The notes below the pieces were generated by a model that saw nothing but the letters and a program-made list of their open reading frames with translations, was not told where the DNA came from and did not search any database. The translations under genes were made by a program, and so were the position numbers. Positions 36,801 through 55,913 of a DNA stretch of 64,000 nt are shown piece by piece (the stretch's first letter is position 1; the number at the start of each line of letters is the position of its first letter). The stretch is from Dissophora ornata (Eukaryota > Mortierellomycota > Mortierellomycetes > Mortierellales > Mortierellaceae), in contig MU616565.1 of assembly GCA_025201705.1 (NCBI GenBank), forward strand, positions 62,001 through 126,000, in the 5' to 3' direction.

Positions 36801-37522
36801 ATGGCAGTTGGCAAGGACATGTAGATAGTAGAGAGGGAGAGAGGGAGAGAGAGAGTAGATAGTGTAGAAACATGCTAATGCTTTTTTTTTAGCTTTATTG
36901 TCCATTCCATATGCAGCCATGGCACTTCTACAAGAAGACAGACAACATGGGAACACGGCAAACACAGTAAAGCATGCACAGCTGCACAGTTACGTGCCTT
37001 CCATTGCCTGAGATATTTCTTGTATGTTTTTTGCGTCGACAAGCCGCTGACATCCCTCGCAAGAACAGTCGCGAAAACTTCGTTGGCCGATCGCCTCCTT
37101 GCATCTGCGATCTGCATATCGGTCATGGCAGACATAGTCGTAGGGATTGTTGTGGCAGAGAGGAGATCAGGGACAGGGCGATAGTGCCGTTGTCTTTGAC
37201 TTTCTCCCTTAAACATTGCTGCAGAGCTCCCTTGTCCCTGTCCCTGTCGTTGCCGTCGTTGTGTCGGTGTCTTTTGAAGGCGTGAAACGGAAACGGAAAC
37301 GGAAGATGGTGAGGTTGGTTGTGTTGTAGAGGGCCCAGCTTGCCCCTCGAGTTCTGTGGAGGGTCCAAGCTTAGCCTTCTTTGGCTGGCGTGGCTAGCGG
37401 GGTCTCTTTGGCCGCTCTTTCGGCTGTTGCTGCGTCGTGCCACCTGGAGGAGGTACGCTTTGTTCCGCCTCTGGTTCATGTTGCCTTTTCCTTGTATTCC
37501 TCGTACCCACGAGCATATCCAT
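33801..37522 (-). pseudogene. Crypton-type tyrosine recombinase with GCR1-like C-terminus, decayed
   Basis: Read right to left. The N-terminal part starts at the ATG 37522 (MDMLVGTRNTRKR). It reaches a helical segment SANEVFATVLARDVSGLSTQKTYKKY (written here only to mark the core-binding region). After an intron comes DESIVDYTVNAARILDYFESVVF. The catalytic domain lies at 36202-35570 (TARHQMILRDEDLRNVMLSD, first catalytic Arg) and 35440-35100 (LRATHAGRHAA, then MGRWSMGQIEAYY with the GRW box and Tyr). The C-terminus (35096-33801) holds a Gln-rich coiled region and a GCR1_C-like DNA-binding end (GLLTVRQAWDEF, ARKRAYTRRRQFID). Lesions seen: a TAG at 37396-37394, a frame change near 36530, a frame mismatch across the intron at about 35570/35440, and a one-base frame change near 35098. 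Cryptons move by tyrosine recombination and lack terminal inverted repeats. An intact source copy elsewhere is likely. Confidence 0.8.
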
Positions 37523-37863: not shown

Positions 37864-38883
37864 ATGGCACAACCTCCCGTTTGGCTCCCCTTCTTAACAG
37901 AGCTGCAGCAGGTTATTGATCAACAAGACTATTATGGCTTCTATAATGCGCTCCTTGTGCCTTCCCACTTTACCAGCGCTATGTCGTCGCGCCGCAGACG
38001 CACCCCAACAAGAGGGACGCTGTCGATTATCTCATAGACTACTACGTGCAATTCGGCAAATATATCGTGCTTGACGTCAAAGTCAAACCCAACAATGTAT
38101 TCTCGCAGCCTTCGTGGATCGCCGGCGCACAGGAACAGGTCTACGCCAGATTCAGGACAATGCGCCCCACTATGTCTTTGTCTCGCAGCCTGCCGAGTGC
38201 CGCGATTTCAATGACGGCACAATGCTCTCAAAATTGGCCATCGACAAGAAGATCCACCACCTTGACTGCCTTGCGCTGGATGGAGGATACACGCTGCACC
38301 TGGAAGGCATTATAGCCGCCAGCGACACACTCACGTCGCCAAATTTCTGCTACCCGATCCGCAAGCGCAAGGGCATTGAGTTGACAGAAGAAGAAATCAG
38401 ATACAATGCCGTCTTTGGCAGCGTTCGCTCAAAAGTCGAGAGTTACTTTGGAGATATGCAGACAACATTCACAAAGTTCAGTCATACCGTGGTGAATCCA
38501 ATATCGCAACGGAACTACATCACAGCCACTGGATTCAGGACGACTTCGACTATCCCGATGGAGAAGATGCTATGAGCGACATGCAGGCTACCGCACCCTC
38601 CTTCAAAGTCAAGGTCAATGATGCAAAATGCATCTACCGGCTACAGGAGAAATTTCTGGGTCTTGCAATCAGTGGCCATGACACTGACCAGGAGATGGAC
38701 AATGATGGCGGCCAGGATTATGTGGTCCAGAAGATCCTGGGTCATCGTGGGGAGAGCGAGTCCCTTGAATACCATGTGCTCTGGAAGGGTTATGATGCCA
38801 GCCACTCGACATGGGAGGTGACATCCCAATTCAATGATCAGCGCACAATAGAGGACTACTGGAACTCGCTCAGAATCTTCTGA
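37864..38883 (+). pseudogene. DDE_Tnp_4-like transposase with C-terminal chromodomain, frameshifted
   Basis: Coding text passes through four frame segments: from ATG 37864, from about 37957, from about 38140, and from about 38540 to the stop at 38883. The third segment shows the end of a DDE fold: CLALDGGYTLHL (second Asp), PIRKRKGIELTEEEIRYNAVFGSVRSKVESYFG (third residue, the Glu, in the conserved YN..R..VE helix; only the start of the domain is missing or unclear). The last segment is a chromodomain: QDYVVQKILGHR, YHVLWKGYDASHSTWE, IEDYW, with the aromatic cage residues. The first two segments do not look like a transposase. RDAVDYLIDYYVQFGKYIVLDVKVKP followed by EQVYARFRQIQD recalls PD-(D/E)XK nuclease-like proteins of fungi (inference). 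The gene is either a chimera or two broken pieces side by side. Confidence 0.65.
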
Positions 38884-39302
38884 AAGGTGGTAGTCCGGAT
38901 CCTGGTTGGATGCGGTGTGCTGTGTATTCTTACAGGTCTCTGGTGGTTTTAAAAGCATCTGCAGTGCGACACGATCCCAGGCCAGGCTGCTTCACTCAGC
39001 AGCTGACGGATAATTAATGGATCCCACTCACAGTGGCGGCAATGCCAATTCCAGAAGCAGCGCCATGAACAATCGTGCGCTGTTTTTTTTAAAATCATCG
39101 TGAGCTTCTAGGAGCGCTGCTCATATCAAAGACTGCCGCGCAGAGAAGACAATTATCGGCTTTTAGTAATCACAGCAAACACAGGAGGTGGGCCGACCGC
39201 AGCCTGATGTTGGCTCTCCCGGAGGCTGGCAAACAATCTAGCATGCAAACTATAGCTATTGCTGACATGCATATTCGACAGCACAAGGATAACCTGGCGC
39301 GT
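38884..39302. other. Spacer within the mobile-element island
   Basis: About 420 bp between the chromodomain stop and the first recognisable Fanzor text. Short open segments near 39243-39310 on the plus strand may be further decayed Fanzor sequence, but I cannot support that. Confidence 0.4.
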
Positions 39303-39747
39303 GCGATGCTAATGTACGCTCAGTGATGCCACATGGTGACCCACACAAGGCCTTTCGGATTGTAGATAGCTTGCTGTACCTGGATATCCGCCTATGGTGG
39401 TGTGCTGCGTGGACGAGTTTAGGACCTCCATTTCGTGCTGCATATGCCACAAGCGAGTGCGGACAAAAGAACGGTCGGTGATATGTCCTGACCCGACCTG
39501 TGGCGGACTGCGCCCTCCAAACTACGACGCCATCCACATGCTGGACCCCAAAGCGGGACTCCACCGGGACCGCGACCACAACGCTGGCCAAAACATGGCC
39601 AACGCAGCCCTTCAGTGGGTCCAAGAGTTCAAGTGGCCCGAGGCACTGAACCGACAAGTTGCCAAGCAGCAACAAGCACCGTGTGGAGCGGTGCAATCCA
39701 TATGGACTTCGGTAAGTGAGAATGCTCTCAAATTTAGGACGTGGTGA
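39303..39747 (+). pseudogene. C-terminal remnant of a Fanzor (eukaryotic TnpB/OMEGA) nuclease
   Basis: The frame from 39394 reads VVCCVDEFRTSISCCICHK, then a second Cys pair in CPDPTC, then GLHRDRDHNAGQNMANAALQW, ending at 39747. This order matches the end of TnpB/Fanzor proteins: the strand before the zinc ribbon with the EFRTS (D/E-x-RTS) motif, a four-Cys zinc ribbon, and the third RuvC catalytic Asp in a RDxNAxxN-like motif. Upstream text in another frame (39305-39390, RSVMPHGDPHKAFRIVDSLLYL) fits the preceding helix, so a frameshift lies near 39385. RuvC I and II, the WED and recognition domains are absent. Fanzors are RNA-guided DNA nucleases carried by eukaryotic transposons. Here it sits beside Crypton and DDE remnants. 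No guide-RNA region can be defined because the element is truncated. Confidence 0.72.
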
Positions 39748-39946
39748 GCTCCACGTACAAAGACTAACATCTGCTCACGGAGCAACTTTGCGTTGTAGGT
39801 CTAATAAATCTGATACATGACACGCGATCAACAAATACGATTCACTCAGTTTTCTGGGGTCACAAAACATGCAGCATGGCTTTAATATATGATAGTGTCT
39901 GGGATGCTAATGCAAACTCTGCTCAATAAATGTCTTTCCACTATAT

Positions 39947-42114
39947 TCACAAAGCCTCTGGAGCCTCCGCAAAATTGCCAACGTTGCTCAGCAGCTCGCC
40001 ATGGATCACGTTCAGAGCCTGGATGGCCTGCCGCTCCAGGATCACACACGAGATATTAATCTCCGATGCGCCTTGCGAGATCATCTCAATGTTGATGCCC
40101 GCCTTAGCTAGCGTTGAAAACATCCGACCCGAGATCCCAACCATGTTCTTCATCTGCTTTCCGACCAACGAGAGAATGGCCATCTCCTTCATCACGTCGA
40201 CCGTACCGATCGAACGCAATGACTCCATGGCCTTCTCCATCTCGGCCTCAATCACGTTGGCGCCCAGCGCCATCGAGATGTGCACCTCTGACGTCGAGAT
40301 CAGGTCAACCGCAATACCATACCGGTCCAGCGTGCTGAAGATCTGAGCAAAAAATCCATGCGAGACAGACTTGCGATTCGAGTGGATGTTGAGAACCCAT
40401 ACATTGTCCTTGATAGTCACAGCCGTAGGATGCCGCCGTGAAAGATCCAGCTGGTAGCCATTCTCTAACAAGACCTTGGATGAAGGTGGAGGGGTACTCC
40501 TGCCATTGGGCGTGCATACACCTGAAGGCTGGTCCGGGAAGATGATAGTGCCCGCACCCTGGGGGTTCATCACGTTCTTGATGCGGATAGGGATTTGAGC
40601 GCGGATGACCTGCTCCATAGTGAAGGGGTGGATGACTTCGGAGCCATAGTAGGTCAACTCAGAGGCTTCCTCAGGGGTGATGATGTTGAGCAGCCTTGCC
40701 TCCTTGACCTTGCGGGGATCTGCCGTAAAGATACCATCGACCTCCTTCCAGACCTGAAGTTCCTCTGCATCGAGGCCGACTGCGATCAAAGCTGCAGCTA
40801 GATCCGTGTATCCTCTGCCGATGCTCGTCAATAAGCTGCCGGGAACAGAGCCAAAGAAACCTAATATCGACATATTGCTTTCAGTCAGTCATCGGAAATT
40901 TCAGGAGCGTGCGGTCACAGGAAACCTTGTGCGCAAAAAACTTTTTTCCCCGCCCCACAATTGACTCCTTCTCTTACCGGTAACGACAGGAACGCGGTTG
41001 CCACATTTGGAGACAGCGGCCGCAAAGGCGCGCGATAGGTAATCGTAAAAGTTCTGGTCCAGGCAGTTGACATCAAAGACAGCCTCGATCACATTCTCCA
41101 GATTCACAAACTGCGTTTCGACGCCACGGTCCTCTAACAGGCCAGCAACAATTCTGCAAGAGAGCTTTTCGCCGACAGCCATGATGATATCCTTTGATCT
41201 CGGCGAAATTTCCTCAATGATCTAGAATGGATTTAGTCATACAGCATGAAAAAGATGGCTCTGTGAATAACTCGTCCCTCTTCTCGATTGTTTGCGACTC
41301 CTGTTTGTGCTTGCTTGTTACCTGTGCTGCTTCCAGGAAGGATCGGAGGCGGTCACAGTCCTGATTGACCTCGTCCTGCACCTTCTTCAAAATATCTGGG
41401 TTGGAGATGTGCGTCTGGGCGGCATCGAGATGGTCGAGCCGGATCTCCTGTACCGTCTCAATATATTCAATCGATCCAGGGACCATCGCTGATGCGGCGG
41501 CCCTCAGCAATCTGAGTAAAGAGGATGTAAAATTGCACCAATGGGGTTATTATTCGTGAAAAAAATAAACCGAACGAGACAACGTGCGAGATAGCAAAGA
41601 GGCAAAAACTGGCTCCGACTTATCGCCGATTCTGATTGTCGGGAATATCCTATTACCTATTCGTAGTGCCCAACGACTTGCTCTCGCTGCTCCGTGCAGA
41701 GCAGACGACGACGACCCGATTCGTCTGGAGATGTGACCTATGCGCGAATTTTTCAAATTTTGCATTGATTAGTGACCAAGATCAAACTGTCTGATAAGAT
41801 CTCTCTCCACATACGCACAGAGGCCATGCGTGCTCTCTATCCGAGCAGAGTAATTCCTTGCTGCTCCAGCATAGCCCATGGAGAAGAAAAAAAAGTCAAG
41901 CAGTTGAAGAGGCTACTCACTGGACAATGGTGCCTGTGATGGCCTCGATAAACTTTCCGATACTGGTGCCACCAAACTTTTGTACAAGCCATGGCTTATG
42001 AGTGCCAAAATGTTCTATGTTGCTGTTGCCATTGGCGTGAGCATGGACATTGACCTCAAGCGCCATGTGCGGAGGGAGGGAACGTCTGAGGGGAGAGGCA
42101 CTCATGGAAGGCAT
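39947..42114 (-). CDS. HOM3: Aspartokinase (first step of Thr/Met/Ile synthesis)
   Basis: Five exons on the minus strand: 42114-41921, 41737-41657, 41511-41322, 41221-40978, 40860-39947. The joined length is 1623 nt, 540 residues, and all phases fit. The enzyme phosphorylates L-aspartate with ATP in the cytosol. Motifs: WLVQKFGGTSIGKF near residues 42-55 (ATP/aspartate site), VVVVCSARS, VPVVTGFFGSVPGSLLTSIGRGYTDLAAAL, and VWKEVDGIFTADPRKV (nucleotide site). The C-terminal third holds two ACT regulatory domains (VLNIHSNRKSVSHGFFAQIFSTLDRYG; LVGKQMKNMVGISGRMFSTLAKAGINIEMISQGASEINISCV), so feedback inhibition, in fungi by threonine, is expected. The start at 42114 (MPSMSASPLRR) is the first in-frame ATG; 42066 (MALEV) is an alternative. 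The length agrees with yeast Hom3 (about 527). Confidence 0.95.
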
Positions 42115-47565: not shown

Positions 47566-48712
47566 TCAGTAAGATGGGGGATTGGCGTCCTTCTTGTCGA
47601 CGGGCGTCACATACTTAGTCGTAGTGGTTGTAGTTGTGGTGCGGACAGGACCCGAGGTCGAGGTCGAGGTCGTGGTGTGGCTAGTCTGCTGTGGCTGGCC
47701 CTGCTGGACGACCTTGTAGTGGTGGATCACACCTGGAGCGGGAGCGCCGCTGGGTGGGGGCTGCGACGCGACAGTGACGTAGGAGCGACGCTGAGCCTGG
47801 CCGGGGCGACCGCTCCCGTTGACGCGGCGGCCGGTCCTTGGATCCTCGCGGTTCGTGTAGATGACCCACCAGGCATAAGCGATACCGGGACCATATCCGA
47901 GGAGAGTCAGACCGACACTACGAGAAAGGCGTAATAGAAAACCCCGAGGGGGAGGTATGTGGTTAGCTGAATACACAAACAGCAAAACGGTCCAGAATGT
48001 TTTTTTTTTGTTTTGATCAACCGCGTTTGTTGCAGCATTGATTATCCAATACATGCAGGGAGTGGAGTTGGGACGCGGAGAGAGGGAGATTTATGTCCTC
48101 TTTTGGTGACACAAGGGTCAACAAATAAACAGAATTCAAGGCGAGGAGACCTTTTTCTGCCTTGCTCGCATTGTGCCTTTTTTTTTTGTTTCTATTCACG
48201 CACGTCGGGAACAAACGCATAACGAGAGCAGCTTGCATCATCCGTCATGGGCGCGCCTCTTTTCGTTTTTTTCCCGTCTCAGCTGAAGTAGGGAGGAATA
48301 TCGGGGTGGGGTTTTTTTTCTCTCTTACCTGATGAGGAAGTCAGCACCGCATCCTTCCTTGAACAGAACTAAGAGAGCAAGAAGCGGAAAACACGTTGAG
48401 AACATTGTTCAACGGAACAGAGGCAATGCATCCTCGAGTTTACCGCGGAAGAACGCGTTTCTCGTGCAAGCATCGACCGGGTGTGAGTGAATTGAGGGTC
48501 CCTGCAACGATTCACTTACCGGCCTAGAGACACAGCAAGATGTGCGTGAGCGAGAGAGAGCACAAGAGAGAAGGTTGGAGGTTACAAAAGCGGACCTTAA
48601 TGCTGTGCTCACGTATCGACTAGCGCCAGATGATTCAGGGGAGACTTACAAGGGGAGGCAGGAAGAATCCAATGACGAAGAGGACGATATCTGAGCCTGT
48701 GAAATGGACCAT
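47566..48712 (-). CDS. PMP3/UPF0057-type small membrane protein with C-terminal tail
   Basis: Exons on the minus strand: 48712-48650, a 4-nt exon 48523-48520 (GCCG), 48368-48329, and 47917-47566. The joined length is 459 nt, 152 residues. The product reads MVHFTGSDIVLFVIGFFLPPLAVLF, then KEGCGADFLISVGLTLLGYGPGIAYAWWVIY: two membrane helices with the family core PPLxVxxxxGCGxDFxINxxLTLLGYxPG. Only with the 4-nt exon do the phases agree and the conserved Ala-Val between PPL and LFKEGCG appear. Pmp3-type proteins sit in the plasma membrane and affect membrane potential and salt tolerance. Unlike the ~55-residue classic form, this one carries a ~75-residue Gly/Gln/Thr-rich cytosolic or outer tail ending NPPSY; tailed forms occur in fungi (Sna-like). 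A TTTTTTTTTG run precedes the last exon within intron 3 on the plus strand. Confidence 0.9.
48520..48523 (-). other. 4-nt microexon of the PMP3-type gene
   Basis: On the minus strand, TCTCTAG then GCCG then GTAAGTG: a good acceptor and a strong donor flank only four bases. The exon supplies one Ala codon and the first base of Val. Skipping it shifts the frame immediately after PPL and destroys the conserved second helix, so it appears obligatory. Confidence 0.85.
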
Positions 48713-54228: not shown

Positions 54229-54378
54229 TATGTTATCGAAAGATCGCGATCTATCATGATATTTACTGTCCAGGTGAACCAATCCTCAGATATTTGAAAG
54301 TGTTGCTCGATGAATGGAAAGACCTGCCTTTGGAGTTCAATCGATGGGATAAGAGTATTCCGCGATAGCCACAAGCAT
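54229..54378. other. Junction segment with a short unrecognised plus-strand frame
   Basis: Between the WD40 break and the recombinase fragment. The plus strand is open from about 54232 to a TAG at 54366-54368 and reads YHDIYCPGEPILRYLKVLLDEW, which looks protein-like but is not recognised. It could be a third piece of inserted DNA. Confidence 0.3.
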
Positions 54379-54645
54379 TCACTGGGAGTGTGCAGCCAGC
54401 CATTTTAAGGTGACCTGTGCCGAATGCCGATCAAAGTAGTGCGTTGTTATGCGTTCGTTGTTCCAATGCCCAGCCTGAGTAATCGAGCCGATGTCTGCCC
54501 CAGCTGAGAGAGCATGGAACGCCCCAGAGCCACGATGCGCGCGAGTGGGCTTGTTTGTAGGGTTGGCCGATTTGTTCCCCATCTCAGATGCATTCCTGTA
54601 CTGCGAGTTGTGGGACAGCTGCTTTGTTGGATCGCCCGAACTCAA
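54379..54645 (-). pseudogene. Tyrosine recombinase C-terminal fragment, unlike the 35-kb Crypton
   Basis: The minus-strand frame ends THYFDRHSAQVTLKWLAAHSQ. Just before lie RAHRGSGAFHALSAGADIGSITQAGHWNNERIT. Family reading: an Arg box (TRAHRGSGA, where the usual His is replaced by Arg), the GHW box, and a catalytic Tyr in THYFDR. This arrangement is that of eukaryotic tyrosine recombinases (Crypton or related). It differs clearly from the recombinase at 35.2 kb, which has GRW and EAYYLPKNP. No N-terminal catalytic Arg region was found, so this is a fragment lying exactly where the WD40 gene is broken. Confidence 0.5.
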
Positions 54646-55913
54646 GAGTAATATCTGGCGCCATATATCCCCATTGAAATCTGGAGGGTTCCTTGGGTGT
54701 TACAGGTATGTAGATCGCTAATAGGTCAACGGGGTGCAACGGACATCAAGCATAGACAGCCAAATACTATACAAGCCAAGGCGGACCATACCGTCCACAG
54801 CTCGAATAGATATAACACGAAAACACCGACAGGGCAGACTTTGACATCCTTGCTCCGTATGATGACCCTTTTGTTTTCTTTGCCTTCGCGGTTTTTCTTT
54901 CGTCGTGGCGTCGAAAAGGAAATTCGGACAACATTCTAGATTCCATAGCCCCCTTAGTCAACGGTCTGGGTACCGAGGTCTTTCTCCAAATGTTTGTAGA
55001 GGATATCGACAGTGGCAGAAATAGTAATCAATGACACCAGGGAGGAAAAGGCAAAGCAGATACATGATATATTTGCTTCGTGTCGATGTATCATACATTG
55101 ACATTTACGCGAACGCCTCCTGATCCTGCGCATAATAGTCAGAGAGATGACTCTTTTGGGGGCGCAATGTTCAACCGCAATGTTCAACCGCAATACTCAA
55201 CCGCAATGGTGCATTTGCAGATGCTGACCCCTTTTTTCGCCCTCACTGGAGGTGGAGGATGTACATGTGGTAATTGCAGATAACGAGAGCTCCGCTACAA
55301 AAGAGCTGACAAGGCCTGGAAAGGGTCTGATCGCGCTGTGAGAATGTTGACTCTGTGGTGGTGGGTTTACAAAGATTTGCCCTGACAGCCTAGTTGTGTG
55401 GCGTTGTTCCACCATGTAGACACGTGAACGAAACTTTGCATCGCAACTATTTTCCTTTGCGGCAAGTTTGAAAGTCGATCCACCTGATAAAGACTCTTGC
55501 TTTTGGGGAGCACTCATGCGCAGCCCTGGTGAATCATTCTCCGACTCTCGAAGTTCTGGAGCTGGAGGGTTGTCCTGATTTGACCAGTTAATGCATGCGA
55601 CAGACGCTCAGGTCACGCCCGAGACCTTGCATCCTTGAAACCGCCGTCAATGGTGTTGAGGGTGTTCAAGGGTAGGATCATGGGCACGCCAAGACAGAAT
55701 AGGCGTTTTGGAATGAGCGGATAACACTGAGTGGGAGCTCTTCTCCATACTGCTGAAGGGCGAGCGCTTCGGCACGATTTGTCCGCCTCGAATAACTCTG
55801 GCTAGGCTATGAGACTTTATCGGGAATGGAGGAGATCCAGTGGATGGCGAAGCGTTGGTCCAAGCTTAAGTCATTTACAGGCTCGTGCTCGAAGGCGCGA
55901 TGAAGATTTCGTG
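54646..55913. other. Intergenic region, nothing supported
   Basis: About 1.27 kb between the recombinase fragment and the MITE. A triple repeat of CAACCGCAATG-like words occurs at 55172-55208. No gene recognised. Confidence 0.45.

Follow-up and report, generated by a model that had tools for sequence, protein, structure and literature searches.

A broken Fanzor gene end in Dissophora ornata and a predicted two-nuclease Fanzor lineage in Mortierellomycota

The window analyzed here is a stretch of 64,000 nucleotides of the fungus Dissophora ornata (contig C4, positions 62001-126000); the genome searched comprised 31.4 Mb in 968 contigs. With a probability of about 0.8, positions 39394-39803 of the window are what is left of the 3' end of a mobile element of the Fanzor1 type, and its lineage, seen here in Mortierellomycota only, has a single gene for two nucleases: a FEN1/XPG-type domain at the N-terminus is followed by a Fanzor with RuvC site and zinc ribbon at the C-terminus, and the element ends soon afterwards, with a stem-loop in many copies. 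The copy in the window is an ordinary dead relic, whereas its family looks like a new architecture of a known kind.

Results

The coding relic and its extent

An open frame was found on the forward strand at 39370-39744. Read from 39394 it gives MVVCCVDEFRTSISCCICHKR...VICPDPTCGG...RDRDHNAGQNMANAALQW. An earlier note on this DNA had placed a Fanzor remnant at 39303..39747 and had named EFRTS, a four-cysteine zinc ribbon and a RuvC III motif in that order. The same order was read in the frame (EFRTS, four cysteines, RDHNAGQN), and the remnant itself was confirmed. The span held from 39394 onward; the opening 90 bases (39303-39392) belong to a 507-bp repeat, as its right end, and the element does not end at 39747 but continues to about 39803, an end common to two other copies. 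The following parts were assigned.

39394..39672, + strand: Fanzor C-terminal coding relic of 93 codons, homologous to residues 1076-1168 of protein P0062
39415..39417, + strand: Glu of DEFRTS, the alternative RuvC-II Glu position (E, six residues, CxxC) in alignment A3, with the spacing given in passages of PMC10711439
39436..39501, + strand: zinc ribbon, with Cys at residues 23, 26, 39 and 44 of the 39370 frame (sequence and alignment A2)
39574..39576, + strand: RuvC-III Asp, in the second RD of RDRDHNAGQN, aligned with the invariant RD columns
39673..39747, + strand: tail of the frame up to the stop, its final residues unlike the tails of L035 and P0001 in the alignments
39748..39803, + strand: noncoding 3' end of the element, ending ...CGTTGTAGGTCTA, an end common to L035 and L036, which then diverge

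P0062 is a protein of 1168 amino acids from Dissophora globulifera, and the relic is the counterpart of its last 8% (tblastn, 80% identity over 93 amino acids, E 6e-43). The segment had ten database homologues (E 2e-54 to 9e-21); an organism was given for five, all of them fungal and falling in Mortierellaceae-type genera. We take the genera of the database homologues to be Mortierellomycota throughout. At E below 0.2 the window showed no other piece of P0062, P0063, P0064 or five XPG-Fanzor proteins. Since the C-terminus of P0062 was the only match there and a repeat lies upstream of 39393, the Fanzor element was severed at the equivalent of P0062 residue 1076. All upstream parts are missing from the relic (flap domain, REC, WED and the RuvC-I Asp); it is inert and cannot work. 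Compared with the copy on contig C356, 0.74 of the synonymous and 0.12 of the nonsynonymous sites differ (nonsynonymous divergence, dN, 0.13; synonymous divergence, dS, saturated). Like the database matches, this strong skew to synonymous sites shows that the frame is no accidental resemblance. Judged from these sites, most of the divergence probably arose under selection, and the truncation would be comparatively young.

Identification as a Fanzor

Fanzors are marked by TDG, DPG and an alternative Glu (passages of PMC10711439). The order in P0062 is an XPG-like N-terminus, LLTDGYQ, AIDPGIK, DEFRTSIFCCRCH, a Cys-rich stretch and RDRDHNAGQN. P0062 thus carries all three marks, and the relic is identified as a Fanzor through its relatives. 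RuvC-I reads AIDPGIK in P0062 and P0063 and AVDPGIK in P0064, a region missing from the relic. In the 54 family proteins of the databases, the TDG column in WED holds Asp in 46 and Asn in eight. DPG is found at RuvC-I of the window clade, and DLG in five aligned proteins of the main clade.

The relic itself has the alternative RuvC-II Glu six residues ahead of CxxC (E at 39415, CxxC from 39436). The Bao and Jurka pattern, [TS][TS]xx-C4 zinc finger-x(5,50)-RD, was found as TSISCCIC, C....C and an RD 21-23 residues past the last Cys. The zinc ribbon deviates from the second half of the pattern in the excerpt of PMC10711439 (CxxC, D within 4-8), having Cx4C and a longer gap to the RD. In profile comparisons of the kind proposed in the earlier note, PF07282 was below threshold (Pfam, E 0.054), and relic alignment A2 matched the XPG-Fanzor alignment A1 with 96.7% probability (hhalign, E 4e-10). 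For the predicted model of P0031, a member of A1, SpuFz, GtFz and PpFz ranked above all other structure matches. The relic profile gave weak matches in PDB (E 0.02-0.7), with TnpB, Cas12f and Cas12m chains intermixed with zinc fingers, and single-sequence PDB searches with the relic, the long exon of L051 and P0062 gave nothing useful.

A predicted fusion of two nucleases

In P0062 and a protein family of Mortierellomycota, an N-terminal FEN1/XPG-type domain is joined to Fanzor. Full-length members have about 1150-1360 amino acids, and the databases list the proteins under such names as 'Cas12f1-like TNB domain-containing' or 'hypothetical'. Both parts are covered by 24 of the 54 database proteins, with both active sites conserved, and single gene models covering the XPG and Fanzor parts were found in several genera. 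The intron joining the two parts was in phase 2 and in frame in all four copies examined, which belong to three subfamilies. XPG-like loci were found up to 3.5 kb upstream of a same-strand Fanzor locus in 23 of 47 cases, compared to 0.3 expected. The order XPG then Fanzor was also observed in the diverged window clade (P0062, C28). A predicted structure, modeled without the first part of the N-terminal domain, points to a FEN1/XPG fold with its conserved acids present. At one locus on C264 (L060) a Fanzor-like segment (E 9e-4) and an XPG-like one overlap in reversed order, and this locus was excluded from the support.

Copies in the genome

The earlier note had expected intact copies in this fungus, now or formerly, and many longer copies were found: PF07282 gave 59 matches in the genome, 54 of them above the cut-off, and at least two copies, L043 and L046, had open frames across every exon inspected. 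Neither of the contrary outcomes it had named, another zinc-ribbon family or no longer copy, appeared. The middle Fanzor exon gave 116 matches (96 of 128 candidates scored) and the first exon 50; merging with the window-clade matches resulted in 117 Fanzor loci. Counts for the large families are lower bounds, and a decayed gene whose pieces lie far apart would be counted twice. The closest copies of the relic lie at the ends of contigs C356 and C840 and are 99.8% identical to each other over 410 bases, which suggests young repeats unspanned by the assembly. The last 90 residues of the C356 copy (L035) are identical to P0064 of D. ornata.

Four further PF07282 matches (C4:140448-140627, C96, C209 and C918) had near-equal scores and one internal TAG, three of the four being at contig ends. 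They are perhaps one recently spread Fanzor subfamily, with one copy 14 kb past the window. A histone H2B-like frame was seen by eye just past the Fanzor 3' end at L045, at about 593-1276 in the - orientation.

The 3' end and the short repeats

Sixteen 3' ends were folded and compared with 200 dinucleotide shuffles each, using stretches of 60-80 nt placed by eye, so that the z-scores are descriptive. L063, L067 and the ends of L042, L048, L050, L052, L053(+) and L054 were left out. The z-score was at or below -3 in 11 of the 16 ends (L043, L045, L046, L047, L051, L053(-), L061, L062, L065 and the near-identical L035 and L036). The folds of L035 and L036 had z of -3.5 and -3.3. In the window, a closing stem was predicted within 39761-39802, in a fold no better than the shuffles.

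A small hairpin (TTTGTGTGT..GC..AACACA) was found past the stop of L045, L046, L047 and L051, all of the main clade, with a longer stem-loop beyond it. Its pattern occurred 24 times in the genome and the reversed control 0 times. Six of the 24 were near a Fanzor or XPG match (C21, C120, C298, C474, C791 and C824), and most of the others coincided with a dispersed short repeat of about 197 bp. Within the window the small hairpin was not found with up to three mismatches; loosening the pattern yielded a single match, at 47958 on the - strand.

At least 40 copies of the short repeat (L061-L067 among them) were counted, with 40 matches scored out of 67 candidates. It carries the 3' hairpin of the XPG-Fanzor type, and several copies carry the long stem-loop too. 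One copy, L061, was 93% identical over 55 bases to the Fanzor at L053(-). On the plain reading, the Fanzor elements and the short repeats are autonomous and short partner elements; the short repeat is possibly a non-autonomous partner or a stand-alone source of guide RNA. Rfam gave no match at E 1 in L061-L064 or in 38800-40000 of the window, and no tRNA was found in L061-L064.

Several Fanzor stops and short repeats are followed by the sequence CTTCGGTGACGTAATT. TGACGT or ACGTCA was present within 250 bases of 8 of 16 Fanzor ends, compared to 8-10% of control pieces. An ATF/CRE-like insertion target in host promoters was considered for CTTCGGTGACGTAATT and rejected; it is instead the apex of the 3' stem-loop in L061, L062, L065, L047 and others.

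Part of the folding counts against a general stem-loop. Five of the 16 ends had z above -3 (L044 -2.6, L049 -1.0, L064 -1.3, L066 -0.1 and the window -1.3), and longer or earlier-ending stretches gave +1.2 for L046, -1.1 for L047, -2.7 for L051, -2.2 for L035 and +0.2 for the window. The earlier main-clade stretches (z -2.7 to +1.2) stopped short of the long stem. RNAalifold on eight ends gave two hairpins, 12 pairs (1 with a double change) and an unhelpful covariation term of +0.33, and did not recover the lower stem.

In line with the guide RNA regions foreseen in the earlier note, many copies have a structured noncoding 3' end; as a guide scaffold the stem-loop is hypothetical. It could instead be a terminal hairpin serving as a DNA transposition end, a serious possibility although not the one we favor. 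Transposons often end in hairpins, the stem-loop is common to the short repeats, and the low covariation would agree with such an end. On the other hand, the stems of L047 and of L061/L065 differ in sequence while their individual folds are alike in shape, UUCG or UUCU loops occur in several copies, and the stem-loop sits where Fanzor guide RNAs sit (passages of PMC10711439). The two functions are mutually compatible.

Weighing of the two-nuclease assignment

Several observations weigh against a fused Fanzor. Both parts are not covered in 30 of the 54 proteins, many of which are labelled partial. No Fanzor match lay inside 3.5 kb of 22 of the 47 XPG loci, and for two of the 47 the match was on the opposite strand. 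In Foldseek, FEN1 was matched only at E 0.0035; in P0062 the Pfam XPG match was faint (E 0.12) and the TNB match sub-threshold (E 2e-4), and a single-sequence PDB search with P0062 gave no FEN1. For the Fanzor part, the main clade has DLG at RuvC-I, whereas Fanzors have DPG near-exclusively. The Foldseek TM-scores to SpuFz were modest (0.31 by query, 0.55 by target), and A1 matched no solved Fanzor in a PDB sequence search at E 1. The model of the relic was poor (predicted local distance difference test 59), with three Foldseek matches only, at E above 4.

The XPG-like nuclease and the Fanzor might be two adjacent genes of one element, making separate proteins and merged by gene prediction. 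The fusion is predicted from genomic sequence and database gene models, and many database proteins start within the Fanzor part; these points and the 22 XPG loci standing apart fit two genes. Two genes are nevertheless improbable in view of the shared in-frame intron, the models spanning both parts and the order retained in the diverged clade. That the segment belongs to a different zinc-ribbon gene family, or was domesticated by the host, is very improbable: the sub-threshold PF07282 value, the derived ribbon with its long insert ahead of the RD, and the open frame retained with dN far below dS would suit it, but the identity to the end of full-length, Fanzor-type P0062 already contradicts it, the 3' end of the element is also retained, the segment begins flush against a repeat, and the dN/dS pattern is expected if the divergence mostly predates truncation.

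Neighboring sequence and Crypton

Two other elements lie on the 5' side of the relic.

38886..39392, + strand: repeat of about 507 bp resembling a miniature inverted-repeat transposable element, abutting the relic; copies on C849, C423 and C87 are 77-85% identical to the window copy
38075..38880, + strand: DDE_Tnp_4 fragment followed by a chromodomain in a different frame (Pfam), a neighbor of the Fanzor and no part of it

The 507-bp family has imperfect terminal inverted repeats (GGYGG...CCGCC) and at least three copies besides that of the window. Matching 3-bp flanks were seen by eye at two other copies, and no target-site duplication was seen at the window copy. The DDE_Tnp_4 match (E 9e-5, below the Pfam cut-off) and the chromodomain (E 4e-11) are apparently the remnant of a chromodomain-bearing transposase. 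Close behind the relic is an aspartokinase-like host gene with AA_kinase and ACT domains (39947-41218 and beyond, - strand).

The earlier note had put both a DDE and a Crypton element within 2 kb of the relic and had linked the Fanzor to Crypton transposons. The DDE neighbor is there, although degraded. For the putative Crypton at 36.9-37.5 kb, Pfam gave nothing at E 0.1, and a Crypton probe (a protein with NDC10_II and GCR1_C domains) had its sole match in the window at 54240-54696 (-), 15 kb from the relic. This match is a remnant of a Crypton tyrosine recombinase, about 70% identical to the frame at L051. The frame at 36875-37393 (-) had partial matches on six other contigs; of these only C299 had Crypton matches, about 1.8 and 2.5 kb away on the opposite strand. 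Genome-wide, four of 24 Crypton loci had a Fanzor or XPG locus no more than 3.5 kb away (about 1.1 expected), only one of them in the same orientation: at L051 (C824) a Crypton C-terminal frame is directly upstream of, and in line with, the Fanzor. Crypton as the carrier of the Fanzor was not supported. For some copies a Crypton carrier is possible, given L051.

Discussion

The family differs from Fanzor1 proteins such as SpuFz1, GtFz1 and PpFz1 in its length, its N-terminal FEN1/XPG domain and the main-clade DLG at RuvC-I. Most Fz1 proteins have 600-700 amino acids, the RuvC insertion of PpFz1 being a notable exception (excerpt of PMC11423790), and up to about 800 are given for Fanzor1 in passages of PMC10711439. 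Compared with FEN1, XPG (Rad2) and EXO1, the domain is fused to a predicted RNA-guided nuclease, lies at multicopy loci and has low sequence identity. Like MCi-2A of Mucor, a fungal Fanzor1 element described with a partial Crypton transposase, and with a Crypton gene in one subfamily, in the excerpt of Bao and Jurka 2013 (PMC3627910), the elements are fungal and of the Fanzor1 type; unlike MCi-2A, the relic has no confirmed Crypton alongside. As in IS607 and IS200/IS605 TnpB, where the guide RNA comes from the right end, the nuclease gene is followed by a structured 3' end; unlike these, the family is eukaryotic and intron-bearing, with the alternative Glu and the flap-nuclease fusion.

No Fanzor-XPG/FEN1 fusion was found described in the openly licensed literature of PubMed Central, partly judged by titles and abstract openings, with most subscription papers and bioRxiv outside this scope. 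The same literature held nothing on Fanzor in Mortierella or Mortierellomycota, or on Crypton in Mortierella. Some family members may be among the 649 eukaryotic proteins of PMC10432273 without having been remarked upon.

Fanzors load RNA from the 3' end of their element and cut a matching target (excerpts of PMC10432273, PMC11423790 and PMC10711439). That the present lineage does likewise is an inference drawn from its 3' ends, its fold and the conservation of its catalytic residues. In intact copies, a transcript of the 3' end with the adjoining flank as guide would be loaded into the Fanzor part, and the RuvC site would cut matching DNA, for instance a donor site or allele that lacks the element. 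FEN1/XPG enzymes cleave 5' flaps and bubble junctions. Such substrates arise at an R-loop or a staggered cut, so the fused domain would most simply serve to process ends or the displaced strand in cis. The flap nuclease might trim the displaced strand or a 5' overhang, after which repair would copy the element back or retain it; alternatively, the domain could act in excision or integration. A bolder version, which we consider unlikely, has the flap nuclease acting on RuvC-opened or cut DNA and the short repeats as stand-alone guide-RNA genes, each supplying in trans a guide read from its flank; a single protein would then guard or copy many loci.

In known Fanzors and their bacterial ancestors, to our knowledge, a single RuvC site cuts and the ends are left to the host. 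Proteins of the family are already in databases, several from cultured fungi such as Mortierella alpina. The fusion would make testable what a Fanzor does for its transposon, namely whether end trimming biases repair towards copying of the element. If true, a natural FEN1/XPG fusion present in several genera would give an RNA-guided system an in-built second enzymatic step.
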